From Pelosinus fermentans JBW45 (lineage in GTDB: Bacteria; Bacillota; Negativicutes; DSM-13327), in contig NZ_CP010978.1 of NCBI RefSeq assembly GCF_000271665.2, positions 2,324,501-2,388,500 of the forward strand: 64,000 nt of DNA, read 5' to 3'. The notes under the pieces were generated by a model that had not been told where the DNA came from, searched no databases, and was given only the letters and a program-made list of their open reading frames with translations. Below, piece by piece: positions 1,431 to 27,704 of the stretch. The translations under genes and the position numbers were made by a program. Positions within the stretch are counted from its first letter, which is position 1. Each line of letters opens with the position of its first letter.

Positions 1431-2933
1431 ATGAAAAAAAAATTGCAAGAATTAATAGATTTATTACCAAGTGCGATAATAGAAGGAAATAAGAAAGTCG
1501 CAGAAACAGTAATTGCAGATTTAGCCCAGGATTCTCGTAAAATCACACCAGGGACTTTATTTGTTTGCTTATCTGGTGCTAAAACAGATGGTCACGACTA
1601 TATTGTGCAGGCCTATCACCAAGGTGCAGTAGCGGTTTTGGTTGAAAAAGATATTGATATCATTCCTCAGGGGTTAACAGTTATAAAAGTAGCTGATACC
1701 AGGGAAGCGATGATGAGGATTGCTCCATATTTTTTTGAATATCCAAGTTGCAAATTACGCATGATTGGAGTTACGGGGACAAATGGTAAAACCACCACCA
1801 CCTATTTAATCAGAAGTATATTACAACAGGCTGGGTTTCATGTAGGAGTAATCGGGACGATTCAAAATAGTATTGGTGATAAAATAGTACCTACTCAAAA
1901 TACTACGCCTGATGTGATTGATTTACAAAGACTGCTAGCCGAGATGGCAGAAGCTAATATGGATTATGTAGTTATGGAAGTATCTTCCCATGCTCTAGCT
2001 CTTAATCGAGTGGCCGGTTGTGAATTTGATGTCGGTATCTTTACGAATATGACTCGCGATCATCTAGATTTTCATGTAACCTTTGAGAGGTATTTAGAAG
2101 CGAAAACAAGATTATTTCAATTACTTAGTAGTAAGGATAATCAGAAAGAGGGCAAGACAGCTATTATTAATACAGATGATAAGGCTGCTGCATTTATTTT
2201 AGAACGTACGGGATGCAACACGATTACATACGGTATTGAGAATCATGCGGATTTACAGGCTAAAAATACGAATATACAAGCGAAAGGCGCGGAATTTGAT
2301 ATTATTGGTTCTTTTGGCATCATGCCATTGCAACTCAAAATAACTGGATTATTTAATGTATATAATGTTTTATCGGCAGTAGGTGCAGCTTTGGCTGAGG
2401 GTATTGATGCTCCTATTATTAAAGCTGCTTTGGAAATGTTTCAAAGCGTATCAGGCAGATTTGAGCTGGTAGACGGGGGGCAACCTTTTAGTATCATTGT
2501 AGATTATGCTCACACGCCAGATGGGCTAGAAAATATTTTAAAGACTGCCCAACAAATTGCTAAAAAACGTATTATTGTAGTTTTTGGTTGTGGTGGTGAT
2601 CGCGATAAGACAAAAAGACCAATTATGGGGAAATTAGCGGTCCAATATGGCAATATTGTAATTGCTACATCTGACAATCCTCGAACGGAAGATCCTGAGA
2701 ATATCTTGAGTGAAATTGAAGTAGGTATTCAAGAGTCACTGACATCAGGAAAGATTTACGAGAAAATTATTGATAGACGCCAAGCGATTGAGCGTGCTCT
2801 ATCTGTAGCTGAAGCGGATGATATTGTAATTATTGCTGGTAAGGGACATGAGAACTACCAGATTCTAAAAGATAGAACCATTCCGTTTGATGATAAAGAA
2901 GTAGTAAAAGCCATCATCAAGGAGATGAAATAA
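1431..2933 (+). CDS. murE: UDP-N-acetylmuramoyl-tripeptide synthetase, meso-DAP adding
   Basis: MurE is the cytoplasmic ATP-dependent ligase that adds the third amino acid to UDP-MurNAc-L-Ala-D-Glu. The 500-residue length is normal. The ATP loop GTNGKTTTT is near residues 115-123 and the central Mur ligase domain follows. DNPRTEDP near residue 415 is the signature of enzymes that take meso-diaminopimelate rather than lysine, which fits dapF elsewhere in this window. GKGHEN lies near the C-terminus. The start has a strong AGGAGG site 8 bases upstream. A 150-base gap separates it from spoVD, and its stop overlaps the murF start by one base (TAATG), implying coupled translation. Confidence 0.97.
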   Translation: MKKKLQELIDLLPSAIIEGNKKVAETVIADLAQDSRKITPGTLFVCLSGAKTDGHDYIVQAYHQGAVAVLVEKDIDIIPQGLTVIKVADTREAMMRIAPYFFEYPSCKLRMIGVTGTNGKTTTTYLIRSILQQAGFHVGVIGTIQNSIGDKIVPTQNTTPDVIDLQRLLAEMAEANMDYVVMEVSSHALALNRVAGCEFDVGIFTNMTRDHLDFHVTFERYLEAKTRLFQLLSSKDNQKEGKTAIINTDDKAAAFILERTGCNTITYGIENHADLQAKNTNIQAKGAEFDIIGSFGIMPLQLKITGLFNVYNVLSAVGAALAEGIDAPIIKAALEMFQSVSGRFELVDGGQPFSIIVDYAHTPDGLENILKTAQQIAKKRIIVVFGCGGDRDKTKRPIMGKLAVQYGNIVIATSDNPRTEDPENILSEIEVGIQESLTSGKIYEKIIDRRQAIERALSVAEADDIVIIAGKGHENYQILKDRTIPFDDKEVVKAIIKEMK

Positions 2934-4291
2934 TGGCGGGATTTACAGTTGAAGAAGTTTGTCTTGCTACAAAAGGAACGCTAATTGTTTCTGCACAACC
3001 AAAGGGATTTACAGGCGTTTCCACAGATACGCGTACGGTACAAAAAGGTGACTTATTTATTCCGCTAATTGGTGAAAATTTTGATGGACATGAGTTTATT
3101 CATCAAGCGATAGAAAAGGGTGCAATTGGTGTTGTTTTTAGCCATAAAAATATGACACTGCCCCAGCAGATTACGGCTATATTCGTTACCGATTCTTTAT
3201 TGGCGCTACAAGATTTGGCACGTTTTCATCGCCAGCGCTTTACTATTCCTGTCGTGGCGATTACTGGATCCAATGGCAAGACGACTACAAAAGATATGGC
3301 TGCGGCTGTTTTATCCAATCAGTTTCATGTATTAAAAACAGAGGCGAATTATAATAATGAAATCGGGTTACCTTTGACATTGCTGCAGCTTACACAGGAA
3401 CATGAGGTGGCAGTGGTGGAAATGGGGATGCGAGGTAAGGGGCAAATCCGCCAATTAGCCAATATTGCATTGCCCACAATCGCCATCATAACAAATGTTG
3501 GTGAGACTCATCTTGAATTGCTGGGATCCATGGAAGAGATTGCTGCTGCTAAAGCGGAATTACTGGAAGTAATACCAGAAAATGGTGTGTCGATATTAAA
3601 TGGTGATAATGTTTATGTGCGAGAAAAGGCCAAAAAAGCAAAGAGTCGTATTGTATTTTTTGGGCTGCAAGAAGGCGATATTAAGGCTGATAACATTCAT
3701 ATAAAAGCCCAGAGTATAGATTTTGTGTGCCGCATGACTAATGATGTTTTTACAGTAGACATACCAACGACTGGTAAACATAATGTTTATAATGCTTTAG
3801 CTGCAATTGCTCTGGGCATGGAATTAGGGATGAATGCTGATGGTATCTCTTCAGGATTTAGGGCTTTTAATGCTAGTCCGATGAGGTTACACATTGAAAG
3901 ATTCGGTGATTACTTGGTTGTGAATGATGCATATAATGCGAGCCCCATGTCTATGGTAGCCGCTATTGATACAATGCTTGAAGTTGCAAAAGGTCGCAAA
4001 GTGGCTGTGCTTGGCGATATGTTAGAATTAGGAACGATTGCAGTATCCGCTCATGAAGCCATCGGGGAAAAACTAGCTCAATGCGGGATTGAAATTGTTG
4101 TAACAGTTGGGGAGTTAGCAGCCAGCATTGCTAATAAAGCGAGTTCTTGCGGTATAAGCCAGGTTGTGGTCTGCTCTAATCATGAACAAGCGCAAGCAGA
4201 ATTAAAGAAGCTGCTTATGCCTGGTGATACGATCTTGATAAAAGGATCAAGAGGAATGAAAATGGAAAAGATTATTAATATGTTCTTATAA
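2933..4291 (+). CDS. murF: UDP-N-acetylmuramoyl-tripeptide--D-alanyl-D-alanine ligase
   Basis: MurF adds the D-Ala-D-Ala dipeptide made by Ddl (also in this cluster) to UDP-MurNAc-tripeptide, finishing the soluble pentapeptide precursor. At 452 residues it has the three Mur ligase domains. The P-loop GSNGKTTTK is at about residue 112, and the EMG metal-binding segment and the NDAYNASP motif typical of MurF follow. The start codon shares one base with the murE stop. An 83-base gap to mraY contains a loose inverted repeat (CTGTTTTAA / TTAAAACAG) but no clear T-run terminator, so one transcript is likely. Confidence 0.97.
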   Translation: MAGFTVEEVCLATKGTLIVSAQPKGFTGVSTDTRTVQKGDLFIPLIGENFDGHEFIHQAIEKGAIGVVFSHKNMTLPQQITAIFVTDSLLALQDLARFHRQRFTIPVVAITGSNGKTTTKDMAAAVLSNQFHVLKTEANYNNEIGLPLTLLQLTQEHEVAVVEMGMRGKGQIRQLANIALPTIAIITNVGETHLELLGSMEEIAAAKAELLEVIPENGVSILNGDNVYVREKAKKAKSRIVFFGLQEGDIKADNIHIKAQSIDFVCRMTNDVFTVDIPTTGKHNVYNALAAIALGMELGMNADGISSGFRAFNASPMRLHIERFGDYLVVNDAYNASPMSMVAAIDTMLEVAKGRKVAVLGDMLELGTIAVSAHEAIGEKLAQCGIEIVVTVGELAASIANKASSCGISQVVVCSNHEQAQAELKKLLMPGDTILIKGSRGMKMEKIINMFL

Positions 4292-5350: not shown

Positions 5351-6706
5351 ATGCATTTTAAGGGAACAAAGATCTTAGTACTTGGTGCTGGTATCAGCGG
5401 TATCTCTGTTGCCTGTGTTTTACAAAACCGTGGAGCACAGATAACATTAAGTGATTCTAAATCAGCGGAATTATTAAAGAATAAGGATTTCTCGCCCATA
5501 CATCAATGTGGAGTAACCCTGGCGTTAGGTCAACAGGGAGAGGAATTGCTTCAGGATATAGACTATATCGTACTGTCTCCTGGGATATCAATTGAAATTC
5601 CATTAGTAAAAATAGCTAAAGCTAAAAATATTAAAGTCATGAGTGAAATTGAAGTAGCATATCAATTGTGTACAGCACCTATTGTGGCCATTACAGGTAC
5701 AAATGGTAAGACGACAACGACAACATTGATTGGTGAAATGGTAAAAACAACAGATCGCAATGTAGTTGTAGGAGGAAATATTGGTTTAGCCTTGTCACAA
5801 GAAGTGGCTGAAGTGGGTGAAAACGGTATAGTTGTAGCTGAAATATCCAGCTTTCAATTAGAAGGCATTATTGATTTTAGGCCTCGTGTGGCTGCTATTT
5901 TAAATATAACTCCTGATCATCTGGATCGACATCATTCGCTAGAGAATTATATTGCGATGAAAGAACGTATTTTTGCAAATCAAACAAAAGATGATTATAT
6001 CGTTCTAAATTATGATGATATAACTGTACGAGAAATGGCGAACAAAGTTCCTTCTAAAGTTTTCTTTTTTAGCAGGAAGGTAGAATTAGATTCAGGAATA
6101 TTTGTAAAAGATGGAATGATCATTATTAAGTGGCAAGAAAAAACATATATTGTATGTCCAATTAGTAAAATACAACTTAGAGGTGGACATAATATTGAAA
6201 ATGTTCTCGCCGCTTGTGGTGTTGCCTTCTTTGCAGGTGTTACTTTAATTTCTATGGTGCAGACCTTATTCAATTTTACAGGTGTTGAGCACCGAATTGA
6301 AAAAGTAACAGTGGTCAACGGTGTGCCTTACTATAATGACTCGAAAGCAACGAATCCTGAGTCATCAATTAAAGCCTTAGAGGCTTTTGAACAACCTATC
6401 ATATTAATTGCAGGCGGACGAGATAAAAATACAGATTTAACTGCTTTTATGAAATTGATCAAAGAAAAGGTGGAGCATTTAATTTTATTAGGTGAGGCTC
6501 AAGAGAGATTTGAAGCAGCGGCAATTAAGCATGATGTATCGCAAATTCATAATGTAAATAGTTTGTCTGAAGCTGTACAATTAGCATATCACCTTGCAAA
6601 GGAACCGCAAGTCGTGTTATTATCTCCGGCATGTGCTAGTTATGACATGTTTACGAGTTATGAAGAAAGAGGAAAAGTATTCAAAAGATTAGTTTATGAA
6701 TTATAA
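5351..6706 (+). CDS. murD: UDP-N-acetylmuramoyl-L-alanine--D-glutamate ligase
   Basis: MurD adds D-glutamate to UDP-MurNAc-L-Ala in the cytoplasm, the second stem-peptide step. The 451-residue protein begins with a Rossmann-like UDP-binding domain (VLGAGISG near residue 11), then the ATP loop GTNGKTTTT near residue 116, and a C-terminal domain with NDSKATNPE and a late LLSPACAS segment, all typical of MurD. The start follows a GGAGG site that overlaps the end of mraY, so the two are probably co-translated. No disruption is visible. Confidence 0.97.
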   Translation: MHFKGTKILVLGAGISGISVACVLQNRGAQITLSDSKSAELLKNKDFSPIHQCGVTLALGQQGEELLQDIDYIVLSPGISIEIPLVKIAKAKNIKVMSEIEVAYQLCTAPIVAITGTNGKTTTTTLIGEMVKTTDRNVVVGGNIGLALSQEVAEVGENGIVVAEISSFQLEGIIDFRPRVAAILNITPDHLDRHHSLENYIAMKERIFANQTKDDYIVLNYDDITVREMANKVPSKVFFFSRKVELDSGIFVKDGMIIIKWQEKTYIVCPISKIQLRGGHNIENVLAACGVAFFAGVTLISMVQTLFNFTGVEHRIEKVTVVNGVPYYNDSKATNPESSIKALEAFEQPIILIAGGRDKNTDLTAFMKLIKEKVEHLILLGEAQERFEAAAIKHDVSQIHNVNSLSEAVQLAYHLAKEPQVVLLSPACASYDMFTSYEERGKVFKRLVYEL

Positions 6707-6773
6707 GAAAATATCATTGGATAATTTTGTTGAGTTGAATGTGAGTGGCATTCAATGATGGGAGGGAATTCCT

Positions 6774-7877
6774 TTGGCGGTTAGACCTAAGTCGCCGGAT
6801 TTTATTCTTTTTTTTGCTGTTATTGCATTATTAAGCTTTGGTGTTGTAATGGTGTATAGTTCGAGCGCAGTCTCAGCCTATGTCAACTTTGATGATAGTT
6901 ATTATTTTTTAAAGAGACAGCTTATTTGGGTAACTTTGGGAGTCACGGTAATGCTGGTAACTCTAAATGTGGATTATCATGTCTGGCGCAAATTTGCAAA
7001 ACCTACATTGCTATTAACAATAGTACTTTTAATCTTGGTACTTGTACCTGGATTTGGTAAAGTCGTAAATGGAGCGCGCAGGTGGCTTGGATTTGGTTCC
7101 TTATATTTACAACCATCGGAAATTGCCAAACTAAGCATGGTTTTATATTCTTCCGCTAGCTTAGCTCGCAATCAAGAAAAAATAAGCTCATTTATCAAAG
7201 GGCTTGTACCTCAATTACTTATCTTATTAGTTATTTTTGGCTTAATTCTGAAAGAACCTGATCTTGGAACAGCATTAGCAATTGGTGGGACAGTTTTTAT
7301 ATTGTTGTTTACTGCAGGTGCAAGATTATCTCACTTAACCTCTCTAGGTCTTGTTGGTGTTACTGGAATTATTGCAGCCATTCTCTTAGAGCCTTATCGT
7401 CTAAAACGATTACTGGCTTTTAATGATCCTTGGGCTGATCCTCTCAATACGGGTTACCATATTATCCAATCTCTTTATGCTCTGGGTTCAGGCGGTTTGT
7501 TTGGTGTGGGACTTGGACGCAGTAGAGAAAAGTTTTTATATCTACCAGAGCCTCATACCGATTTTATTTTTGCGATTCTAGGTGAGGAGCTTGGTTTCAT
7601 TGGTACGGTAACGGTAATTTTATTATTCTTTTTATTTGCTTGGCGTGGATTTAAAATAGCTATCTCTGCACCAGATATTTATGGAAGTCTATTAGCTGCT
7701 GGATTAACTACAATGATTATTATGCAAGCTCTGATGAACATAGCTGTGGTAACAGCTTCTATGCCGGTAACAGGAATCCCCTTACCGTTTATTAGCTTTG
7801 GTGGCTCTGCATTAATTTTTACTTTGCTCGGGGTAGGAATATTGTTAAATGTATCAAGATATATTCATGATAAATAG
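6774..7877 (+). CDS. ftsW: SEDS-family peptidoglycan polymerase FtsW/SpoVE
   Basis: This is a polytopic membrane glycosyltransferase of the SEDS family that polymerises lipid II with a partner class B PBP, probably the SpoVD/FtsI protein at the start of the cluster. The 367 residues carry about ten membrane spans. They include the early YSSSA segment, KEPDLGTA, GLGRSREK and the C-terminal PFISFGGS motif shared by FtsW, RodA and SpoVE. The position between murD and murG fits FtsW or SpoVE, which sequence alone does not separate. The start is TTG at 6774, preceded by GGGAGGGAA. No in-frame ATG fits the conserved N-terminus. Confidence 0.93.
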   Translation: MAVRPKSPDFILFFAVIALLSFGVVMVYSSSAVSAYVNFDDSYYFLKRQLIWVTLGVTVMLVTLNVDYHVWRKFAKPTLLLTIVLLILVLVPGFGKVVNGARRWLGFGSLYLQPSEIAKLSMVLYSSASLARNQEKISSFIKGLVPQLLILLVIFGLILKEPDLGTALAIGGTVFILLFTAGARLSHLTSLGLVGVTGIIAAILLEPYRLKRLLAFNDPWADPLNTGYHIIQSLYALGSGGLFGVGLGRSREKFLYLPEPHTDFIFAILGEELGFIGTVTVILLFFLFAWRGFKIAISAPDIYGSLLAAGLTTMIIMQALMNIAVVTASMPVTGIPLPFISFGGSALIFTLLGVGILLNVSRYIHDK

Positions 7878-7947
7878 GGTGGCTGGTGGTAAGAATTTCT
7901 GATAAAATAACCGAAGTTATTTTTGGAGTTAAGGGGGCAAGTCCGAC

Positions 7948-9057
7948 ATGCGGATTATTATGTCTGGCGGGGGAACAGGTGGCCACATCTACCCCGCCAT
8001 TACTATCGCTAAAGCGTTACGAGAGAAAGTTAAATACTGTGAAGTATTGTTTATAGGTACTCAAAGTGGTTTAGAAGCTGACATTATACCTAAAGAAGGA
8101 TTTACGATTCAGTTTATAGATGTAGCAGGATTTGAGCGGCGTTTGTCGGTAAAGAACATACAAACGATAGCTAAAACAATAGGAAGTGTTTGGCAGTCTC
8201 AGAAAATTATCCGGCAATTTAAGCCCGATATTGTTATTGGGACAGGCGGTTATGTTTGTGGGCCTGTTTTATTAGCAGCCAGCCTACTTAAAATTCCAAC
8301 AATGATTCAGGAACAAAATGTAATTCCTGGTATTACGAATAAGATTTTATCTCGTTTTGTCGATAAGATCGCTTTAGGGTTTACAGAAGCAAGTGAAAAT
8401 TTTCCAAATCAAAATAAACTGTTTTTTACTGGAAATCCCATACGTCAAGAAGTTATATCTGCTAGCCGAGAAGAAAGCATAGCGGCTCTTGGTCTTGATC
8501 CGACCAAACGTACGATATTGATATCGGGCGGCAGCAGAGGTGCTCGCAGCATTAATCAGGCCATGATAAAGGTTCATCAGTTTTTTGCAGGCAGCAAAGA
8601 GATACAACTATTGCATGTTACTGGGCAAAGCGAGTATAATGGCATAGTTGGAAAATTTACGCAATGTGGTATAGATATAACGGCAGCTGGTAATATTATC
8701 ATCAAACCATATTTATACAATATGCCTGAAGCACTAGCCGTAGCAGATCTTGCGATCTTTAGGGCTGGTGCCCTTGGACTAGCTGAATTAACAGCAAGAG
8801 GGGTTCCATCGATATTAGTTCCTTATCCATACGCCGCAGAAAACCACCAGGAGTATAACGCTAGGGCGATGGAGCGGCAAGGAGCAGCCATTCTCATTCA
8901 TGACAAAGAACTCAATCATGATATATTAATTAAAAGCATTAGTGAATTAATGAATAATCCGCAAAAATTAGATATGATGTCTCTGGCAAGCAAAAAAATA
9001 GGTCGCCCTAAGGCTGCTGAGAGTATTGCCCAGATGGCTCTTAATCTGATTAAATAA
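7948..9057 (+). CDS. murG: UDP-GlcNAc : undecaprenyl-PP-MurNAc-pentapeptide GlcNAc transferase
   Basis: MurG is a peripheral enzyme on the inner face of the membrane that adds GlcNAc to lipid I to give lipid II, the substrate FtsW polymerises. It is a GT-B fold glycosyltransferase of 369 residues. The glycine-rich loop GGGTGGHIYP is at residues 7-16, GGSRGARSIN is in the middle, and a later FRAGALGLAE segment contacts the nucleotide sugar. AAGGGGG precedes the ATG by about 9 bases. It follows ftsW by 70 bases with no terminator visible. Confidence 0.97.
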   Translation: MRIIMSGGGTGGHIYPAITIAKALREKVKYCEVLFIGTQSGLEADIIPKEGFTIQFIDVAGFERRLSVKNIQTIAKTIGSVWQSQKIIRQFKPDIVIGTGGYVCGPVLLAASLLKIPTMIQEQNVIPGITNKILSRFVDKIALGFTEASENFPNQNKLFFTGNPIRQEVISASREESIAALGLDPTKRTILISGGSRGARSINQAMIKVHQFFAGSKEIQLLHVTGQSEYNGIVGKFTQCGIDITAAGNIIIKPYLYNMPEALAVADLAIFRAGALGLAELTARGVPSILVPYPYAAENHQEYNARAMERQGAAILIHDKELNHDILIKSISELMNNPQKLDMMSLASKKIGRPKAAESIAQMALNLIK

Positions 9058-9157
9058 CATTAAATATTAAGCTGTAACACCCTTGTGATGATCTGCATAC
9101 TATAAAACACGCATAAGAGCTGATAGGTAAGGGTGCCCAAGAAAGGGGAGACATTTT

Positions 9158-10537
9158 TTGCTAAAAGATATAAAAAAAATTCACTTTGTTGGCATAGGTG
9201 GTGCTGGTATGAGCGCAATTGCCAAAGTCTTACTACAAATGGGATATATTGTTTCAGGGTCTGACCTTACTAAATCTGAGACTACTGCTAAATTAGAAAA
9301 AATAGGGGCTCATATATATTTAGGACACAATGAAGAGAATCTTCAAGATTCTCAAGCAATCGTAATATCAACAGCTATTCCTGAGACCAATCCTGAGGTT
9401 AAATTGGCAAGAAAAAAACAGATTCCGGTTTTTCATCGTGCGGATATTGTGGCATATTTAATGTTGCAGTATAAGGGGATTGCTGTTGCTGGTGCTCATG
9501 GTAAGACGACAACGACATCGATGATTGCCGTTATGCTTGAACATGCAGGAGTGGATCCGACTGTAATTATTGGTGGTGAAGTTGATTATTTAAATGGCAA
9601 TGCTAAACTGGGATCAGGTCAATATTTAGTCGCTGAGGCAGATGAGAGCGACGGTTCCTTCTTGAAGTTTTCACCCCATATTGCCGTAGTTACGAATATT
9701 GAGAATGATCATATGGACTTTTATAAAACGATGGAAAATGTGTTAGATACTTTCAAAAAATTCTTACATAAATTGCCACCAAGTATAGGTTTGGGTATTG
9801 TATGCTTTGATAATGAGAATATCCGAAATTTAGTAAATGAAGTAGATCGTCCCTATATTTCTTATGGAATTGATCATACTGCTCAATACATGGCGCGTAA
9901 TCTTTCGACTCAAGGAGCCACGACTACTTATGATGTATATCATAATGAACAGTTATTAGGGTCTATTAAAATAAATGTTCCAGGAAGACATAATGTGGGG
10001 AACTCTTTAGCAGCTGTTATTGTTGGTTTAAATATTGGTCTTACCTTCCAGGAAATTGCAGAAGGTTTGGCTCATTTTCAGGGCGCTAAACGCCGCTTTC
10101 AAACGAAGGCTAAAATTAATGGAGTTTGGATTATTGACGATTATGCTCATCATCCTACTGAAATTGCAACTACGTTATTGGCAGCCCGCCAGACAGAGCC
10201 AAATCGATTAATTTGTGTATTCCAACCTCATCGCTATTCACGCACTGCATTTTTACGTAATGAATTTGGCTCTGCTTTTCAATCAAGTGATATATTAGTT
10301 CTTACCGATGTGTATTCAGCGGGAGAAGCACCAATACCGGGGATCACAGGTGAGGTCTTGAAAGAGGAGGTTGAACGCCAAACGAGTAAGAAGGTAATTT
10401 ATATTGCGGATAAAGATAAAATAGCTAGGTATCTTAGTCAAATTGTTGAACCTGGTGATCTGGTTATTACCATGGGAGCTGGAAATGTTTACTGTGTAGG
10501 GGAAGAACTAATTGAATCCTTAGTGCAAAAACAGTAG
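9158..10537 (+). CDS. murC: UDP-N-acetylmuramate--L-alanine ligase
   Basis: MurC adds the first stem-peptide residue, L-Ala, to UDP-MurNAc. The 459-residue protein starts with a nucleotide-binding fold (GIGGAGMS near residue 12). It has the P-loop GAHGKTTTT near residue 112, the DESDGSF segment, and DDYAHHPTEI in the C-terminal domain, all MurC hallmarks. The start codon is TTG after an AAAGGGGAG site. murB, which often follows murC, is absent here and the next gene is murA. A short hairpin follows the stop. Confidence 0.97.
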   Translation: MLKDIKKIHFVGIGGAGMSAIAKVLLQMGYIVSGSDLTKSETTAKLEKIGAHIYLGHNEENLQDSQAIVISTAIPETNPEVKLARKKQIPVFHRADIVAYLMLQYKGIAVAGAHGKTTTTSMIAVMLEHAGVDPTVIIGGEVDYLNGNAKLGSGQYLVAEADESDGSFLKFSPHIAVVTNIENDHMDFYKTMENVLDTFKKFLHKLPPSIGLGIVCFDNENIRNLVNEVDRPYISYGIDHTAQYMARNLSTQGATTTYDVYHNEQLLGSIKINVPGRHNVGNSLAAVIVGLNIGLTFQEIAEGLAHFQGAKRRFQTKAKINGVWIIDDYAHHPTEIATTLLAARQTEPNRLICVFQPHRYSRTAFLRNEFGSAFQSSDILVLTDVYSAGEAPIPGITGEVLKEEVERQTSKKVIYIADKDKIARYLSQIVEPGDLVITMGAGNVYCVGEELIESLVQKQ

Positions 10538-20559: not shown

Positions 20560-20581
20560 ATGAATAGGGGAGAAATTGATT

Positions 20582-21184
20582 GTGAAGTATAATACGTTAT
20601 GGGGAAGAGGTTTGCTAATCGTTCTTTTCATTGTTGCTGGATGGGGGTTTTTGCTTTACTATGGACAAGAAAATTTACCCGTATCACTCGGTAAGGAAAA
20701 TCTCATACGTTTGCATGTACTAGCGAATAGTGATAGTGCATCTGACCAACAGCTAAAGTTAAAAGTCCGTGATGCCGTTATTGCTTATTTAGCACCGCAT
20801 TTAGAAACTGCTATTGATAAAGAAATGGCAAGAAAGGTTGTATTGGAACATCAGGGTGAACTTACTGCTGTGGCGGAAAAGGTCGTGGCAATGAATGGAT
20901 CCCATGAGCCGGTAGCGATAGAGTTAGGCATGTTTGATTTCCCTATAAAATCATATGGTAATTTGGTATTGCCGGCTGGAAAATATGAGGCAGTACGTGT
21001 ACTTATAGGAAAGGCAGAAGGTAAAAATTGGTGGTGCGTATTATTTCCTCCTCTTTGTTTTATTGATATTACTAATGCGACGGCACTGCCGCCAAAAGAA
21101 GTTATTAGTGATGCAGAACAGAAAAACGAAAAAGTTGAATTTCGCTGGAAATTAGCTGAACTTTGGAAAGAGGGGCTAAAGTGA
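20582..21184 (+). CDS. spoIIR: Stage II sporulation protein R
   Basis: SpoIIR is made in the forespore and secreted into the intermembrane space, where it activates SpoIIGA and so sigma-E in the mother cell. The 200-residue protein has an N-terminal membrane/secretion segment (about residues 8-27) and the family core LIRLHVLANSDS...QQLKLKVRDAV. It ends with NWWCVLFPPLCFIDIT and a charged tail. GTG at 20582 is nine bases after AGGGGAG; a TTG two codons upstream is the alternative. Sitting directly behind sigG, it puts signal, receptor and sigma factor within 3.5 kb. Confidence 0.92.
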   Translation: MKYNTLWGRGLLIVLFIVAGWGFLLYYGQENLPVSLGKENLIRLHVLANSDSASDQQLKLKVRDAVIAYLAPHLETAIDKEMARKVVLEHQGELTAVAEKVVAMNGSHEPVAIELGMFDFPIKSYGNLVLPAGKYEAVRVLIGKAEGKNWWCVLFPPLCFIDITNATALPPKEVISDAEQKNEKVEFRWKLAELWKEGLK

Positions 21185-21258
21185 ATTTTATTTACCTGAC
21201 ATCCCTGACACCTTTACTCTTTAATTTCATATACTATATGGAACAAGCAGAGGCGTAG
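21181..21258 (+). CDS. Possible 25-residue mini-ORF overlapping the spoIIR stop
   Basis: A GTG overlapping the spoIIR TGA (GTGA) opens a 25-residue hydrophobic frame, MNFIYLTSLTPLLF onward, with GAGGGG five bases upstream. It may be a small membrane peptide, a gene remnant or chance. I recognise no family. Confidence 0.2.
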   Translation: MNFIYLTSLTPLLFNFIYYMEQAEA

Positions 21259-21269
21259 GGGGTAAAAAT

Positions 21270-21401
21270 ATGATAAAGACGTCAGATCTTAACATGTCAG
21301 ATATTCAAATGGTAAAAACGAACATAGCTTTTCCAATCATTATTAATAAAAGAGATTTTGGAGGGCTTCTTAATAGGGTATATAATTATTTTTCAATGTA
21401 A
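21270..21401 (+). CDS. Small hypothetical protein, possibly truncated (43 aa)
   Basis: A TAGGGGG site precedes an ATG that opens 43 codons, starting MIKTSDLNMSDIQMV and containing FPIIINKRDFGGLLNRVYNYF. The frame runs into the tail of the leftward recombinase and overlaps its last 16 bases. The good ribosome binding site and ordinary codon use suggest real or formerly real translation. The abrupt end at the recombinase suggests a 5' gene fragment cut by insertion. No family recognised. Confidence 0.4.
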   Translation: MIKTSDLNMSDIQMVKTNIAFPIIINKRDFGGLLNRVYNYFSM

Positions 21402-22858
21402 AATTCAAAAGAATCATTAAGTCTTACTGCAAAAATACGATATGATAGTTTAAGTAATACACTGCGTTTTTCTGCAAAGGTTTTGGCTGTGATTAAATCA
21501 GTTGGTGATGTTACCAGCTGATTTGTTTTTTCCAGGACAGTTCTCAGCTCAGATATATTGTGATGGATAGTAGCTAGCTCCTTATTTAGGGTCTGTAATT
21601 CTCTTTCTACTGTTTCACTATCAATCAAATTCTCTTGATACCAACGCAGGGTATTTATTTTTTTCTTCTTTAGTTCAATTTGGATAGCATGTAAGTTTGT
21701 TATTTGTTGTGAATAGCTAAAATTGGTGTTGGTAAGCAGGTATTCTTGTAAATGATCTTTAGCAGTTGCTAGCGTAACAAGGCATTGCCAGACAGCCTGT
21801 TCTAAATCTTCCACTGGTATTCGGCGACACTGGCAAGATGTGCCATTGACTGCATATGTATTTGATTCTTTGGAAATACAGGAATAATAATAGTAAATTT
21901 TATCGCTACCGTTTTTTCGCTTAGCAGTACGAGCATAGGCTGTCATGGAACGTCCGCAGAGAGCGCAGTGCAACAATCCCCGTAAAAGATAATTATGTTT
22001 ATTATTACGTGTTGCTAATTTCTTATTTCGTTGGATCTGCAATTGGGCAGATTCCCACATTTCACGAGTGATTATCGCAGGAATTGTAACAGGAATCCAA
22101 GCTTCAGGAGGATTATCTTTGATTTCGCGGCTATTCTGACCCGTTTTACAAGTTCTTTGCTTAAAAAGATAATGCTGTCCATGATACATTTCTTTAGTAA
22201 GAATGCGTGAGACAGTGCAGATCGAGAGTGGGCGATTATTTGTACCGACAATACCAAGGCGTGCTAACTCTAAAGTAATTCTCCTTGAACCATAGCCTTG
22301 ATGAATGCATAAATGATAAATGAATTGAATGGTTTTACTTGCCTCTTCATTGATAACATACATACTATTTTTTTTATCCCAGTCATAGCCAAAGGGGTGG
22401 GCATTGGAGACGATTTTTCCTTGAGTTGCTTTCGCTCGGCGACCGCGAGAAGTTCTTTCACGAATTTTTGATTTTTCATAAGCAGAAATAGCGCCTTTCA
22501 TACTGAAAAATAAGCGGCCTTCTGGTGAGGAATCATAATCACCAGTTACAAAGGTAATTCTTGCACCTGTTTTTTCTATTTCATCAGCAATAATCAATTG
22601 ATTGGTAAGATTACGGGAAAGACGATCGGGATCATAAATAGCTACGATTTTTATGATCCCATTTTGCAAATCACTTCGTAATTTATCAAGGCCAGGGCGC
22701 TCTAAATATTCTCCGCTATAGCCATCGTCAATATATTCTTTTATCCCAGTGTGATCCATCGCTAATAAATGATTGCGACAGGCAGCGATTTGGTCGTTTA
22801 AAGAATAACCTTTGCGGGCTTGGTCATCTGTTGACACCCTCACATATAGCGCATTCAT
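21386..22858 (-). CDS. Large serine recombinase (site-specific)
   Basis: This enzyme would cut and rejoin DNA at short att sites through a covalent serine intermediate. The 490-residue protein has an N-terminal resolvase domain, with the catalytic serine in YVRVSTDDQ near the start and IYDPDRLSRN later. A recombinase domain follows (AHPFGYDWDKK onward). A zinc ribbon (LLRGLLHCALCGRSM, then CISKES and CQCRR) and a C-terminal coiled coil complete the usual phage/ICE integrase plan. It looks intact. ATG at 22858 is chosen because TGGAGGATATT precedes it. It is one of only three clear leftward genes. No cargo genes or att repeats are obvious, so it is an orphan or relic of a larger element, beside spoIIR. 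Confidence 0.93.
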   Translation of the reverse strand: MNALYVRVSTDDQARKGYSLNDQIAACRNHLLAMDHTGIKEYIDDGYSGEYLERPGLDKLRSDLQNGIIKIVAIYDPDRLSRNLTNQLIIADEIEKTGARITFVTGDYDSSPEGRLFFSMKGAISAYEKSKIRERTSRGRRAKATQGKIVSNAHPFGYDWDKKNSMYVINEEASKTIQFIYHLCIHQGYGSRRITLELARLGIVGTNNRPLSICTVSRILTKEMYHGQHYLFKQRTCKTGQNSREIKDNPPEAWIPVTIPAIITREMWESAQLQIQRNKKLATRNNKHNYLLRGLLHCALCGRSMTAYARTAKRKNGSDKIYYYYSCISKESNTYAVNGTSCQCRRIPVEDLEQAVWQCLVTLATAKDHLQEYLLTNTNFSYSQQITNLHAIQIELKKKKINTLRWYQENLIDSETVERELQTLNKELATIHHNISELRTVLEKTNQLVTSPTDLITAKTFAEKRSVLLKLSYRIFAVRLNDSFEFYIEK

Positions 22859-22910
22859 AATATCCTCCATTATTATTGAGTGTTATCTATTTTTATGTGA
22901 GGATAAAAGA

Positions 22911-22940
22911 AAAATGACAGAACGCATGTTCTGCCATTTT
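22911..22940. repeat. Inverted repeat upstream of the recombinase gene
   Basis: AAAATGACAGAAC and GTTCTGCCATTTT form a stem of about 12 bp with one mismatch around GCAT, about 50 bases before the recombinase start. It could be an operator, a recombinase binding site or a terminator for facing transcription. Confidence 0.5.
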
Positions 22941-23029
22941 AGATGAATGTATCCAATGACTAAAAAGCCCTAAGATTCCATCTTCTATAAGTGGGGCTAA
23001 GAGCGATTAAGTCCTATGGAAAACTGTGA

Positions 23030-23071
23030 CTAAGATTCAGATGGAGTGTTAGCATTCCATCTGAATCTTAG
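23030..23071. terminator. Strong hairpin between the small basic gene and the recombinase
   Basis: CTAAGATTCAGATGGA and its exact complement form a 16-bp stem with a ten-base loop. Read leftward it follows the 45-residue gene by 18 bases and is followed by TCACAGTTTT. Read rightward it is followed by CCTTCTTT. It most likely ends the leftward small gene. Confidence 0.65.
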
Positions 23072-23088: not shown

Positions 23089-23226
23089 TTATTTTCCTCT
23101 GCCGGCTTTTCTCATGGGCATTTGATGGCTGGTATTGTTAGCTTTTCCTTTAGCCGCCTTTAAGAATGATTTATTGTTTTCGTTTGCTTTTTTCTTCTTA
23201 TCAAGTAATAGAGCCTGTAAATCCAA
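23089..23226 (-). CDS. Small lysine-rich protein (45 aa)
   Basis: On the complementary strand an AAAGGAGG site is followed eight bases later by a TTG that opens 45 codons. The product starts MDLQALLLDKKKKANENN and ends MPMRKAGRGK, is strongly basic, and has no cysteine or membrane segment. The excellent ribosome binding site, host-like codon use and hairpin after the stop support a real gene. The composition suggests RNA, ribosome or DNA contact, but I recognise no family and assign no function. Confidence 0.6.
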   Translation of the reverse strand: MDLQALLLDKKKKANENNKSFLKAAKGKANNTSHQMPMRKAGRGK

Positions 23227-23420: not shown

Positions 23421-23616
23421 AGGATTTTATGATTTGTCCGACGAATTAACGATAAATCCTAAAAATTTGTAAGTATAGTCTTAGATGTACTTGGAGGTGG
23501 ATATGTATAACATCTAGATAGAGCTGCAAGCTGGTTAGTCGGTGGGGAGCCAAATACAGAGTTGGATGTCTATCGGTACCGAAGAAGCCATAGGGGAACA
23601 ATATATTGGGGGAAAT
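23421..23616 (+). promoter_or_regulatory. Porin 5' leader with several possible stems
   Basis: About 200 bases precede the porin start. They contain pairing segments TAGATGT/ACATCTA (about 23482-23517), AGCT/AGCT, CCAA/TTGG, and the palindrome CGGTACCG near 23575. A long open frame crosses part of it but has no ribosome site or family match, so I treat it as untranslated. I tested it by eye against c-di-GMP, ydaO, yybP-ykoY and Moco aptamers without a convincing fit. Confidence 0.35.
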
Positions 23617-24552
23617 ATGATGAAAAAAATAATTACTACTGCTCTTGCTGCCGCTATGGTTTTAACTACAGGTGCTGCCTTTGCCGCTCCTGTAGAACTT
23701 GATGGTCAAGTCAAAGTACAATACCGCTCTAATACTGCTGATGGTGAATCGGATTCTCAAGGCGGCATATATAGTTTTCGCTTAAATGCCAAAACAGCCT
23801 TAAGCAATAATGTTGATTTATTTGCTCGTTTTGCTGCGCAATCTCTTAGTGGAGATAAAATTGGTCCGGATTTTTCCAAAGCTAAATATGGTAATAGTGT
23901 AGCAGTTCTTGATCAATATGGAATTATTGTAAAGGACAAAGATTTTCAATATAAAGTAGGACGCCAGGGGCTTTCTATTAGTCCGACAGCCTTGCTCTAT
24001 AGCAGTGAGGGATATATCGGAGAGAACTATGGCCTTTTTGATGGCGTCGTTGCTACTGGAAAATCTGGTGTAACTTCATTACAGATTGTTGCTGGTAAAA
24101 GTGATAGAGATACTAAAGATAAGGTTTATTCTGTTCATGCTTCTTATAGTCCTGTAAAAGATTGGACTGTAGGAGGTACCATTGCAAAAGCTAATCCTAA
24201 TGCAGGTAGTGATAGAACTTTCTGGGGAACTGATGTTCAATATACTACCGGTAAAGCCAGCTTTGTAGCGGATTATCTCAAATCTGATGATGATACTAAA
24301 AATGATGCTCTCGTCCTTGGGGTAACGTATGCCTTTGATGATAAAAATAGCTTATCCGCTTATTCCCACAGGACTGATGCAAATGCAGCTATTTATACCG
24401 ATTGGGATCCTGGAGAAAAAGGTGCCTACTATATTTATAACCACAAATTTGATAAAACAACCTCACTGAACTTATTATATAAAAGTAATACTGCAATTGG
24501 CACAGATGCTGATAATACTTCTTTCCGTGCTTCCGTTGCTTATAAATTTTAA
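23617..24552 (+). CDS. Outer membrane beta-barrel porin
   Basis: The product is a predicted outer membrane diffusion channel, about 311 residues. The N-terminus is a classical signal peptide (MMKKIITTALAAAM...), with probable cleavage after AFA at about residue 23. The mature part has alternating polar/hydrophobic beta strands, few cysteines, and ends in VAYKF, the terminal aromatic residue recognised by the BamA assembly machinery. Substrate specificity cannot be told from sequence. GGGGG is four bases before ATG 23617 and seven before ATG 23620, so either start is possible. Its presence next to sporulation genes marks the organism as a diderm spore-former. An IS begins ten bases after the stop, so the native terminator has probably been displaced. 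Confidence 0.88.
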   Translation: MMKKIITTALAAAMVLTTGAAFAAPVELDGQVKVQYRSNTADGESDSQGGIYSFRLNAKTALSNNVDLFARFAAQSLSGDKIGPDFSKAKYGNSVAVLDQYGIIVKDKDFQYKVGRQGLSISPTALLYSSEGYIGENYGLFDGVVATGKSGVTSLQIVAGKSDRDTKDKVYSVHASYSPVKDWTVGGTIAKANPNAGSDRTFWGTDVQYTTGKASFVADYLKSDDDTKNDALVLGVTYAFDDKNSLSAYSHRTDANAAIYTDWDPGEKGAYYIYNHKFDKTTSLNLLYKSNTAIGTDADNTSFRASVAYKF

Positions 24553-24658: not shown

Positions 24659-26269
24659 GTGAAATCTAAGAAATTACAACTAGATTATACAGTAGACTCA
24701 AATGTATATCAACTAGTAATACCGATGGACATTGGCGAAATGATTCCGGCAGATGATTCGGTGCGGTTGCTCAACGCGGTGCTAGAAAGGATGAATTACA
24801 GCAAATTGTACGCTGCGTACTCCCGAATGGGGAGAATCGAGATGTCACCGAAATGTCTGTTCAAGATACTTGTATATGGATACATGAACGGCATCTATTC
24901 GAGCCGCAAGCTCGAGCAGGCATGCCGGCGGGACGTCAACTTCATGTATCTGCTAGGCCGGAGAAAAGCACCAGATCACGCGACGATCGCACGGTTTCGC
25001 AGCGAACGGCTGGCAGAGGTCGTGGACGATCTGTTTGCCCAGCTTGTGCAACTGTTGACCGATGCGGGAGAACTGTCGCTGTCAAGCGTTTTCATAGACG
25101 GAACCAAATTGGAGGCCAATGCGAACCGATACAGCTTTGTCTGGAAGAAATCGACGCAAAAAAATGAAGAGAAGATGCAGAAGAAGATGAAAGAAGAGTT
25201 GCCGGCGCTAGCAGCGGAGTTTGGGATTCGCTTTTATGTCGGCCAGGTGATAAAGCCCAAAGACCTAAAAAAGCTGCGCAAACGGCTAAAAGCACTGCAA
25301 GCTGAACGCCGTATTGTTTTTGTTCACGGCAAAGGACAGCGTAAGACTTCGCTGCAGCGGGCGCTTCAAACGGTAGACCAATACCTTGCTCGGCAGAAAA
25401 AGTATAATGACTATAATCATAGCTTTGGAGAACGCAACAGCTTTTCCAAGACGGACAGAGACGCCACCTTCATGCGGATGAAAGAAGATCATATGAAAAA
25501 TGGTCAGCTTAAACCGGGCTACAACGCGATACTGGCGGTGGACGCGGAATATATAGTATCCACAATGATCGGTCAGGACCGAAGCGACAGCCAAATGTTG
25601 ATCCCGATGTTGGAGACGCTCAAGGGACTGGGGTATACAAAACCCGTAGCGGATGCGGGCTTTGAGAGTGAGGAAAATTACACATGGTGCGAGCAAAACA
25701 ACCAAATCGCATTTATAAAGCCCGCGAATTATGAGAAGGCCAAGACGAAGAAATATAGGGCAGACATCGGCAAGCGAGAGAACATGCACTACAATGCAAA
25801 GACCGATAGCTACCTATGTCACATGGGGCGCCCGATCCAGGCAGCTTATGAAAAAAAGACCCGATCTAAGGCCGGATATCCCATCGTGACAACCGTATAC
25901 ACCTGTCCAGATTGTGCCGGCTGTCCGCATAAGGCCCAATGCATCAAGGGAGCGAGCAAGACTCCCCTCGAAGAACGAAGCAAGAACCTGTATGTATCCA
26001 AAACCTTTTTGCGTCAACGTGAAGAAATGCAGGCACGTATCAAGGGTGAGGAGGGTGTTATGCTTCGGATGAACCGCTCCATTCAGGTGGAGGGAGCTTT
26101 CGGGGTGCTCAAACAGGACATGGGATTTCGGCGATTTCTGATGAGGGGCCGCGTAAAGGTGCAAACCGAGTTTCTATTACTATGCATGGGGTATAACGTA
26201 AACAAGCTCCATAACAAAATCCAAAGCGACCGGTGTGGGACCTACTTGCATATTCCAAAAGCATCCTGA
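24659..26269 (+). CDS. IS1182-family transposase
   Basis: This DDE transposase moves the surrounding element. The 536 residues start with a DUF772-like domain (MYLLGRRKAPDHATIARFRS), followed by the catalytic core: FIDGTKLEANAN, ILAVDAEY and VADAGFESEENY supply acidic residues. A cysteine cluster CPDCAGCPHKAQC follows, and VEGAFGVLKQDMGFRRFLMRG near the C-terminus supplies the glutamate. No stop or frameshift is seen, so it may be active. The start is GTG with no clear ribosome binding site. Codon use is strongly GC-ending compared with the host genes. Long frames on the opposite strand are a by-product of that composition. Confidence 0.95.
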   Translation: MKSKKLQLDYTVDSNVYQLVIPMDIGEMIPADDSVRLLNAVLERMNYSKLYAAYSRMGRIEMSPKCLFKILVYGYMNGIYSSRKLEQACRRDVNFMYLLGRRKAPDHATIARFRSERLAEVVDDLFAQLVQLLTDAGELSLSSVFIDGTKLEANANRYSFVWKKSTQKNEEKMQKKMKEELPALAAEFGIRFYVGQVIKPKDLKKLRKRLKALQAERRIVFVHGKGQRKTSLQRALQTVDQYLARQKKYNDYNHSFGERNSFSKTDRDATFMRMKEDHMKNGQLKPGYNAILAVDAEYIVSTMIGQDRSDSQMLIPMLETLKGLGYTKPVADAGFESEENYTWCEQNNQIAFIKPANYEKAKTKKYRADIGKRENMHYNAKTDSYLCHMGRPIQAAYEKKTRSKAGYPIVTTVYTCPDCAGCPHKAQCIKGASKTPLEERSKNLYVSKTFLRQREEMQARIKGEEGVMLRMNRSIQVEGAFGVLKQDMGFRRFLMRGRVKVQTEFLLLCMGYNVNKLHNKIQSDRCGTYLHIPKAS

Positions 26270-26503: not shown

Positions 26504-26755
26504 ATGTCACGTGAGAGAAAGCCCTGTAAAGGCATATTTCGTGGTCTAATTATTGGTAGGACGAATCAGAATGGTGGACCATACTCTGCTATTGAAAATG
26601 GTGAATGCAGAGTTATTGAGTATGTAGAACAGAGTGATATACCTGAATTGGTAACTCTTGAAAGAGCAGTTGCCAATGCGTTTATTGAGACAGGTATCTG
26701 TCAGTACAATAGCAGAGAAAAAATAGAAAAATATATGGAAATTCACGATAAATAA
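26504..26755 (+). CDS. Hypothetical protein, 83 aa
   Basis: GAGGTGAT lies five bases before ATG 26504; a GTG three codons upstream overlaps that site and is unlikely. The product begins MSRERKPCKGIFRGLIIG, has two cysteines (in PCKG and ECRV), mixed charge, and no signal peptide or membrane span. It looks like a small soluble cytoplasmic protein. I recognise no family. It is the first of four small rightward genes between the IS and nrdR. Confidence 0.65.
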   Translation: MSRERKPCKGIFRGLIIGRTNQNGGPYSAIENGECRVIEYVEQSDIPELVTLERAVANAFIETGICQYNSREKIEKYMEIHDK

Positions 26756-26826: not shown

Positions 26827-26859
26827 AGGATTATAGAAGTATATTAGGTGGTGATTGGT

Positions 26860-27090
26860 ATGAAAAGGGATGAGCGAATTCCACCAATTGAAGCAGTTGA
26901 AAAAGCATTGCGAGTGAAGCCTATTGGACGTATACAACTATTTAAAAGACCTGAATATATGCCGAAAGAAAAGGCTAACAATCAATCTCTAAAGAAAAAA
27001 GAAGACAAAGAAGAAAAGAAAGACGGGATTGTCAATCGAGCGAGTCATGCTGCTGGACGAGTCGGCGTAACAGTAGATTATAAAGTTTAA
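26860..27090 (+). CDS. Hypothetical basic protein, 76 aa
   Basis: AGGTGGTGATTGGT precedes ATG 26860. The product starts MKRDERIPPIEAVEKALRVK and has a very lysine/glutamate-rich middle (KKKEDKEEKKDG) that is probably disordered. It ends in a glycine/valine-rich segment with VGVTVDYKV. No cysteine, signal or membrane span is visible. Function unknown. A dedicated promoter lies 34 bases upstream. Confidence 0.6.
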   Translation: MKRDERIPPIEAVEKALRVKPIGRIQLFKRPEYMPKEKANNQSLKKKEDKEEKKDGIVNRASHAAGRVGVTVDYKV

Positions 27091-27148
27091 ATGAATCGTA
27101 TTGCTTTTACGAGTATGGTTTGACTGCCTCAGAGGTGATAGAAATAAT

Positions 27149-27325
27149 ATGCAAAAACCCATATGTAGCAAGTGTGTGCATCTTTATACAACTTGGGATC
27201 GAAAATTTCCCTATGGATGTAGGGCTATGGGGATTAAAAGTGCATCATCGCCTTCCGAGGTGGTTAGAGGGGCCTCCGGGCAGAATTGTTTAGCATATAC
27301 TGCAAAGCAGAGCAAGGAAAAGTAG
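27149..27325 (+). CDS. Small cysteine-containing protein, 58 aa
   Basis: AGAGGTGATAGAAATA precedes ATG 27149. The product has CSKC at residues 6-9, HLYTTWDRKFPYGCRAMG in the middle and a fourth cysteine in QNCLAY. It is similar in plan to short CxxC proteins of deltaproteobacteria and Firmicutes that are sometimes mislabelled uracil-DNA glycosylase. It is far too short for that enzyme. Four cysteines could bind one zinc or iron. Role unknown. Confidence 0.65.
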   Translation: MQKPICSKCVHLYTTWDRKFPYGCRAMGIKSASSPSEVVRGASGQNCLAYTAKQSKEK

Positions 27326-27428
27326 AATAGGGAATAGCAAGCTTAGGTGTTCATCAAATAAACTTTATTAAAATGGGATATCATAAATCTTCTTGTCCCT
27401 CATAGAATGTATTGGGGGTGTGGATGAT

Positions 27429-27704
27429 ATGAAAGGCATTACCAATTGCGTATCAGATCTTAAACTTAAAGAAGTAATCAATATTGTTGATGGTAAAAGG
27501 TTAGGGGCGATTACAGATATTGAAATTGATGTGGAAAGTGGAAGATTAACAGCTATCGTAGTTCCGGGAAATGGCAGGTTTTTAGGCTTATTTGGCCGTA
27601 GCGAGGATGTTGTAATTCCTTGGGATAAAATTAATAAAATAGGGTTTGATGTTATTTTAGTAGAGGCTACTGCTTTTGCCGAAATCAAACACCTGGATAA
27701 ATAA
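27429..27704 (+). CDS. PRC-barrel protein of the YlmC/YmxH family
   Basis: The 91-residue product is a single PRC-barrel domain: VSDLKLKEVINIVDGKRLG, then ITDIEIDVESGRL and a final strand after VVIPWDKINKIG. YlmC/YmxH proteins are widespread in spore-forming Firmicutes and often lie close to sigG or other sporulation genes. Their function is not known. ATG 27429 follows GGGGGTG by about eight bases; longer in-frame starts lack a ribosome site. A terminator-like hairpin follows. Confidence 0.8.
   Translation: MKGITNCVSDLKLKEVINIVDGKRLGAITDIEIDVESGRLTAIVVPGNGRFLGLFGRSEDVVIPWDKINKIGFDVILVEATAFAEIKHLDK

Follow-up and report, generated by a model that had tools for sequence, protein, structure and literature searches.

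What does a large serine recombinase do directly behind the sporulation gene spoIIR, and which gene does it concern? We examined this question in Pelosinus fermentans JBW45 (a member of the Negativicutes, G000 among our genome handles, present as a single contig), within a window of 64,000 nucleotides (nt), which is the whole stretch of DNA analysed and gives the coordinates used below. Our analysis indicates that the recombinase almost certainly sits at one end of a small element that separates the 5' end of ylmC from the rest of that gene, and we lean, by a little, towards the view that the element can be excised and that its excision serves the expression of ylmC in sporulation.

A preliminary description of this DNA had reported an intact large serine recombinase, read leftward, directly behind spoIIR, and this is borne out. 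The gene is intact and lies tail to tail with spoIIR, with 201 bp between the two stops (Table 1). Its Resolvase catalytic, Recombinase and zinc-ribbon domains, all three above the Pfam cut-offs, place it among the large serine recombinases, and both S13, which we take to be the catalytic serine, and the DR-SR region are invariant in the 10 sequences compared. The same description had called the recombinase an orphan without visible cargo, which has to be given up: six places in the G000 genome match the Recombinase domain, and the enzyme is the end of an element that reaches position 27463 with several genes. It had also drawn a link to sporulation in the manner of the skin element; the kind of element was well judged, but the gene is ylmC, spoIIR being merely its neighbour.

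The element splits ylmC near its start

Between spoIIR and the recombinase lie the severed promoter, ribosome site and first codons of ylmC. In 13 of the 14 genomes read there, a -10 box resembling CATATAAT is present together with a ribosome site and an ATG that begins M(I/L)KTSDL; the block of G297 is degenerate. In recombinase-free genomes the same block, with small changes, opens an unsplit ylmC starting M(L/I/V)KTSDLKLKEVINV (23 of 24, the exception being G028). The small frame that had been described as truncated or abutted by the recombinase does exist (21270-21401, 43 amino acids [aa]), but only its first codons are kept, and these are the start of ylmC. The remainder of the gene restarts at 27462 and belongs to TIGR02888, the YlmC/YmxH family of sporulation proteins. 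Both junctions have TCAGATCTTAA in common, and joining the flanks in silico gives an in-frame YlmC of 87 aa, MIKTSDLKLKEVINIVDG...; the element sits in about codon 8 of ylmC. Several traits of a skin-type element are present: a sporulation gene is split, its frame is restored by joining the flanks, the recombinase is inside, and a short common core lies at both ends.

The element measures 6,171 bp between the two AA dinucleotides. It holds the recombinase, a 45-aa frame, a porin, an insertion sequence (IS) transposase and three small frames, and its right end has a second promoter, ribosome site and start; a substitute promoter and start for ylmC are supplied in this way by the element itself. 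No phage structural or replication genes were found in the window element, in which the larger frames are the recombinase, porin and transposase and five small frames have no family above cut-off; the PHROGs scan covered five proteins, two of them small proteins from other genomes, and the verdict on phage genes covers the window element. IS-free elements of the genus (G001, G003, G006) are about 4.2 kb long. Cargo varies between families, and the smallest elements, of about 2.4-2.8 kb, contain hardly more than the recombinase and a candidate directionality factor. The porin gene is carried inside the element across the whole genus.

The element belongs to ylmC and not to spoIIR

The class set comprised 380 genomes, 52 of them with spoIIR. 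An element was counted if the recombinase lay behind spoIIR, or beside a ylmC stub where contigs end or genes intervene. The element is present in 19 of the 52, in six families (the genus with all of its 8 genomes, and 11 genomes from five other families), ylmC is unsplit in 24, all from other genera, and the remaining 9 have no clear ylmC within the stretch read. Element-free genera or species occur in the same families (G009, G026, G295 and several Sporomusa-like genomes). In one element-free genome (G310; locus L109, 4048-4287, minus strand), ylmC lies inverted between spoIIR and nrdR.

The recombinase stop is 8-121 bp from the stub core in 18 of the 19 elements, G297 not having matched the search pattern. 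In Sporomusa silvacetica, S. ovata and Sporomusa sp. KB1, other genes intervene and the distance from spoIIR to the recombinase is 6.8-11.5 kb, yet the recombinase stop remains 37-47 bp from the ylmC stub; the intervening genes are outside the element, the stub being on their far side. Because the stub stays at the recombinase at such a distance from spoIIR, we rejected a spoIIR switch and assign the element to ylmC.

The recombinases at the ylmC site are of a single lineage, on which selection acts. In a tree of 58 rows, from which G004 (frameshifted) and G005 (contig-split) were left out, the 17 usable sequences form one clade with support 97/90, recovered in 97% of bootstraps, and the ratio of nonsynonymous to synonymous substitution rates (dN/dS) is 0.06-0.22 in 9 pairs. 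A five-gene species tree agrees on four Sporomusa-type genomes, on the f27 pair, on the G022/G037 pair and on G006 as separate from the other members of the genus. The two trees conflict within Pelosinus, where the recombinase tree pairs G003 with G007 (96/87) and the species tree, weak here (67-71), does not. As the deep branches of the species tree are weak, the element may also have been transferred between families.

Attachment sites and a possible trace of excision

The repeat common to the attachment sites attL and attR alone is 11 nt, and the expected attB junction in Pelosinus is GACGTCAGATCTTAAACTTAAAG. We rebuilt attP by joining the left arm of attR to the right arm of attL, assuming crossover at the AA that ends the core, for 13 of the 19 genomes (G001, G002, G004, G007, G297 and G307 were left out). 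The rebuilt sites are dyads at the first centring in 11 of 13 (shuffle p < 0.01); G305 and G306 pair at 7/20 at the first centre and at 12/20 when re-centred by one base on the centre of G304, a step made after the first result was known. When the arms are slid by 1-3 columns, paired cells drop from 72% to 30-41%. Compared with shuffles, the sites are exceptional in cells paired (1/500), cells changed on both sides (2/500) and covariation (3/500), and arms of the same genome pair at a mean of 13.0/20, above all 1,854 derangements (mean 10.9, maximum 12.6; 7 lineages, each represented by one genome). The attB sites, when rebuilt, form weaker dyads (5-11/20). A pseudo-palindromic attP has been described for A118 (PMC3783163; this and the other papers are cited by PubMed Central number, from excerpts).

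A possible trace of the excised form is found in the metagenomic P. fermentans bin UBA6563 (G002), whose recombinase is 95% identical to that of the window. Its contig C77 (4,269 bp) is the element. Contig C63 terminates in GATAAAGACGTCAGATCTTAA, the 21-mer that opens C77 in the same orientation, and at its other end C77 closes with TCAGATCTTAAACTTAAAGAA, at a distance of 21 nt from the first base in common, so that the assembly breaks precisely at the two 21-mers that attL and attR would have in common with an excised junction. Among 20 further contigs of this assembly (8 read whole) there was no other end-to-end overlapping pair, and two pairs of ends share 20 and 18 nt. The pattern of an attP circle had 0 matches in viral contigs. 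Taken with the attachment sites, these breaks suggest that the element probably still excises.

The preliminary description had made its idea depend on relatives with an empty site or an excision product. Half of the picture that it held to be adverse is indeed present, as all 8 genomes of the genus have the element at the same place with the same flanks, but unsplit ylmC genes occur in other genera and one assembly has the trace just described. An old, immobile insertion kept through cargo or drift would account for this uniformity, for the frameshift in G004 and for the integrated form seen in the contigs or chromosomes of other genomes. It agrees poorly with the low dN/dS, the matched attP arms, the kept stub, the breaks in G002 and a cargo that differs between families down to the smallest elements, and we regard such a locked relic as very unlikely.

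A candidate directionality factor

Comparing the frames of 14 elements brought out recombinase-gene fragments in several frames and one small protein of 49-85 aa that is common across lineages. A profile built from the 14 copies finds it in 18 of the 19 elements, 14 of these being the training set; the nineteenth is G307, whose contig ends inside the recombinase. Outside the training set, the profile weakly matches three elements at the sigK 3' end (E 1.4e-4, 0.004 and 0.011), the region that follows sigK in G001 (8e-4) and the surroundings of a recombinase in G311 (2.7e-4). The small protein has no Pfam or NCBIfam family. The predicted structure of a 51-aa member (predicted local distance difference test [pLDDT] 80, predicted template modelling score [pTM] 0.44) has one helix (27-49) and short strands; it had no fold match at E < 0.001, and the best PDB sequence match was at E 0.13. 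Known factors are equally small, GirX having 42 aa (PMC5595907) and CD1234 72 aa (PMC5025042). We regard the small protein as a candidate directionality factor of the recombinase.

The severed native promoter is conserved

We call the severed native promoter of ylmC P1 and the element-borne one P2. To measure conservation of the stub, a 60-nt segment with promoter and ribosome site, excluding the 15 nt that adjoin the core, was set against the fourfold sites of spoIIR. The segment is more alike than the fourfold sites in 8/8 pairs computed: 46/63 versus 17/52 for G000/G006 (p 1.5e-5), 53/60 versus 35/63 for G000/G005 (p 4.5e-5), 44/61 versus 18/47 for G022/G037 (p 4e-4), and p 0.012 in the weakest pair. 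Ten pairs had been planned, and two Sporomusa pairs were dropped because the pattern was searched next to spoIIR; the pairs have genomes in common and are not independent. The 60 nt past the core are less alike than the stub in most pairs (34/64 for G000/G006) and as alike for G022/G037 (43/60) and G039/G103 (39/64); they contain the att arm of the opposite side and, for some genomes, also the last part of the recombinase gene.

The -10 box of P1 is ~60 bp from the crossover, which is farther than the attP half-site of 25 bp described for an enzyme of this kind (PMC3783163), and the frame behind P1 runs for 8 to 43 codons, of which only the first are in common. Because the stub promoter is conserved past the reach of the att site while the frame behind it shares its first codons only, recurrent excision would best explain the upkeep of the severed promoter. 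P1 might also have been kept for a different role, for instance to drive antisense RNA into the recombinase gene, towards whose 3' end it is directed, or to express a short peptide. Such a role is highly improbable, given a frame of so variable a length and a ribosome site and start that have been kept and that an antisense RNA would not need.

The two promoters appear to be of different types. In Clostridium difficile, sigma-E and sigma-K promoters have the -10 box in common and differ at the -35, with ATA versus AC (PMC3789822). Of the unsplit genes, 20 of 24 have a native ylmC promoter that matches AC-N16/17-CATA, and 0 of 24 have one that matches ATA-N14/15; among the stubs, the figures are 17 of 19 and 2 of 19, respectively. 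Right ends of the element fit ATA-N15 in 9 of 18 (7 Pelosinus, G318 and G103, the last of these 113 nt away from the core) and the AC type in 0 of 18. The 18 right ends come from 17 genomes, G039 having two ylmC, and the spacings of 16/17 and 14/15 were set after a first look with wider limits; as many of the sequences come from close relatives, these counts are not independent. In Pelosinus, therefore, the element looks as if it swaps a sigma-K-type promoter for a sigma-E-type one. Since sigma-K follows sigma-E, a need for sigma-E does not separate the two types. This applies to ylmC of C. perfringens, which is expressed only in sporulation and requires Spo0A and sigma-E (PMC9332280).

The two ylmC copies of G039 (locus L178, 1651-1899 and 3742-3990) are both downstream of the element; the first has no in-frame start, and the promoter and leader of the second resemble those of the element.

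Sister elements at other genes

Sister recombinases lie tail to tail with cut genes at the sigK 3' end, spoVK, a feoB-like gene and comF. The sigK gene is cut near its 3' end in G000, G003, G005 and G006, with the lost tail located further on in the first three, and this cut is additional to a skin-like interruption in the middle of sigK. The sigK gene of G000 is in three pieces (locus L181, C1:2225500-2237000; Table 1), through the mid-gene interruption and a second element of about 2.3 kb near the 3' end. We rejected the idea of one recombinase for sigK and ylmC, as sigK is split with and without the ylmC element and is whole in the element carriers G022, G318, G305 and G306.

The spoVK gene is cut, with a sister recombinase, in G000, G001, G003, G007 and Sporomusa acidovorans (family checked for G000). 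In G000 (locus L245; cut gene and recombinase together at C1 about 2566457-2568722), the cut is mid-gene, the remaining part (5457-6020, plus strand) covers positions 3-136 of 261 of the family, and the sister recombinase (6061-7722, minus strand) lies tail to tail behind it; the S. acidovorans recombinase is more distant. A cut feoB-like gene with a sister recombinase behind it is found in 7 of the 8 genus genomes (L251, L253, L209, L258, L207, L259 and L202; family checked for G001), none being seen in G000, and a comF-like gene is cut near its 3' end in Pelosinus propionicus (L224), with a distant sister recombinase behind. In G004 (L247) and G037 (L248), a sister lies behind sigE, and SigE is of full length through a substitute 3' end (checked for G004). 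The last codons of native sigE adjoin sigG (L049, L104), about 47 kb away in G004.

The recombinase tree groups by target: the feoB set, the sigE pair, 4 of 5 spoVK and 3 of 4 sigK-3' sequences. A further clade of sister recombinases (L246 6800-8296, L260, L203, L204, L208) showed no cut gene by the tail-to-tail test. As read from these loci, an element of this kind either splits a gene or replaces one gene end, and the ylmC element is of the replacement type, at the 5' end.

Other features of the locus

A 19-bp inverted repeat is present at 23030-23071, right of the recombinase. SOS control was considered and rejected: GAAC-N4-GTTC upstream of five Pelosinus recombinases is part of the stem of a terminator whose arms, by eye, co-change between species, and so was not taken for a LexA box. 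A sigma-E-like promoter lies upstream of the recombinase in 5 of 18 elements, versus 3% expected from mononucleotide shuffles, and upstream of the small-protein gene in 1 of 16.

Table 1. Features of the ylmC element and its surroundings (window positions), and of the sigK locus of the same genome (positions in L181)
Feature	Position	Strand	Basis or remark
spoIIR	20576..21184	+	PF09551; left neighbour, outside the element
P1, native ylmC promoter, AC-N16-CATATACT	21210..21235	+	Severed; sigma-K-type by its -35, type after PMC3789822
Ribosome site of severed ylmC start	21256..21263	+	Comparison of the interval between spoIIR and recombinase
ylmC stub, first codons MIKTSDL	21270..21292	+	Compared with unsplit ylmC of 24 genomes
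attL, putative crossover AA at 21291-21292	21271..21312	.	Core in common with attR
Large serine recombinase, 494 aa	21386..22870	-	Resolvase, Recombinase and zinc-ribbon Pfam domains
Terminator-like hairpin between 45-aa frame and recombinase	about 22911..22940	-	Read by eye; arms co-change between species
45-aa basic frame	23089..23226	-	In 8/8 genomes of the genus
Porin, cargo	23542..24552	+	PF13609; conserved in the genus
IS transposase within the element	24659..26269	+	PF13751, PF05598, PF01609
Small protein, 83 aa, candidate recombination directionality factor	26504..26755	+	Family in 18/19 elements
80-aa frame	26848..27090	+	Frame listing and genus comparison; no family above cut-off
74-aa frame	27101..27325	+	Frame listing and genus comparison; no family above cut-off
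P2, element-borne promoter, ATA-N15-CATAGAAT	27383..27408	+	Sigma-E-type by its -35, type after PMC3789822
ylmC in present form, element-borne leader MKGITNCV joined to SDLKLKEV...	27429..27704	+	TIGR02888
attR, putative crossover AA at 27462-27463	27442..27483	.	Core in common with attL
sigK N-part (L181)	1062-1553
Recombinase (L181)	1565-3118	-
sigK C-part (L181)	about 7584-7900
Second recombinase (L181)	7927-9390	-
Last sigK codons (L181)	about 10190

A possible promoter switch

A mechanism can be proposed from these observations. The recombinase would recombine attL with attR at the AA dinucleotide, excising the element, with the small protein as the directionality factor for excision, and this would take place in the sporulating mother cell, as for skin. 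Before excision, the sigma-E-type promoter of the element (in Pelosinus) would drive a ylmC with an element-borne N-terminus; after it, ylmC would be back behind its own late sigma-K-type promoter, with its native N-terminus. The element would then act as a developmental promoter switch rather than as a plain on-off interruption. Our certainty falls from excision by the recombinase at the AA, through the small protein as directionality factor, to mother-cell excision that restores P1. A tie between excision and sporulation is, in our judgement, evenly balanced. A switch of ylmC from sigma-E to sigma-K is tentative and rather unlikely, and slightly more doubtful still is the broadest form of the proposal, a developmental promoter switch derived from a mobile element, in which one gene would give two timed products through DNA rearrangement, as a member of a family found in sigK, spoVK, sigE and a feoB-like gene of Negativicutes.

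Several observations weigh against excision in the service of sporulation. A ylmC paralogue (41%) is present elsewhere in the genome, and the promoter and start of the element may make excision needless. No ATA-type (or AC-type) promoter was seen at the other 9 of the 18 right ends, a sigma-E-like promoter was not found upstream of the recombinase in any of the 8 Pelosinus genomes, and the recombinase of G004 is frameshifted. In the shuffles, the attP sites are unexceptional for pairs changed on both sides (47/500) and for further pair types (354/500). As G002 is a metagenome bin, a mixture of strains could give the same breaks, and the remainder of ylmC is not in its assembly. Lastly, the feoB-like gene and comF are not known sporulation genes, and the sister elements behind sigE leave SigE at full length.

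A selfish integrative element could instead target the 5' end of ylmC and bring a replacement promoter and start that spare the host, its occasional excision being unrelated to sporulation. The replacement promoter and leader, the sisters that restore the end of sigE, the targets outside sporulation and the patchy presence all speak in its favour. However, the native promoter kept about 60 bp from the crossover would be needless for a harmless insertion unless excised cells matter, and the right ends of G039 (at the first ylmC copy) and G297 have no in-frame start of their own beside ylmC. We consider a purely selfish element possible, although we doubt it, and continue to lean towards excision that serves ylmC expression in sporulation. 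Timed excision would make this a natural DNA rearrangement with the function of a promoter switch; with untimed excision, some other cause would have to be sought for the upkeep of the severed promoter. The definition of the att sites, recombinase and small protein is sufficient for bench tests in harmless bacteria of soil and sediment.

Comparison with known systems

Rearrangements of sporulation genes in the literature, as represented in our excerpts, come from Bacilli and Clostridia (sigK, spsM, gerE, yabG). Among the matches listed from open-licence papers, no title or beginning of an abstract mentions an insertion in ylmC, and the open-licence literature gave no match for a skin element of Pelosinus or for Pelosinus sporulation together with a recombinase.

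The skin element in sigK of C. difficile has the recombinase CD1231 and the directionality factor CD1234 (PMC5025042). The ylmC element resembles it in having a serine recombinase inside an element that splits a mother-cell sporulation gene, a small (here candidate) directionality factor, and an excision (here predicted) that rebuilds the gene. It differs in its target ylmC, in the split at the 5' end, in the substitute promoter and start, and in its small size, the timing in sporulation being here a matter of inference. The gin element in gerE of Bacillus cereus, with GirC and GirX, 28.6 kb and three recombinases (PMC5595907), is, like the ylmC element, not prophage-like and combines a serine recombinase and a small factor with a short core (9 bp in gin, 11 here). 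Unlike the ylmC element, gin, as described in the excerpts, splits a coding region without a substitute start, is far larger, has three recombinases and belongs to the Bacilli. Elements also lie in sporulation genes in the case of yin in yabG of Clostridium botulinum (PMC10747680) and of SPbeta in spsM of B. subtilis (PMC4191935), but these are prophages or prophage-like, and in other genes. The A118-type phage serine integrases (PMC3783163) are alike in the kind of enzyme and in a pseudo-palindromic attP, although the A118 enzyme is from a Listeria phage and the comparison is one of attP symmetry alone. Compared with these systems, what is new here is the target gene ylmC, the occurrence in Negativicutes, the very small form of the element, and a swap of promoter and start in place of gene breakage.

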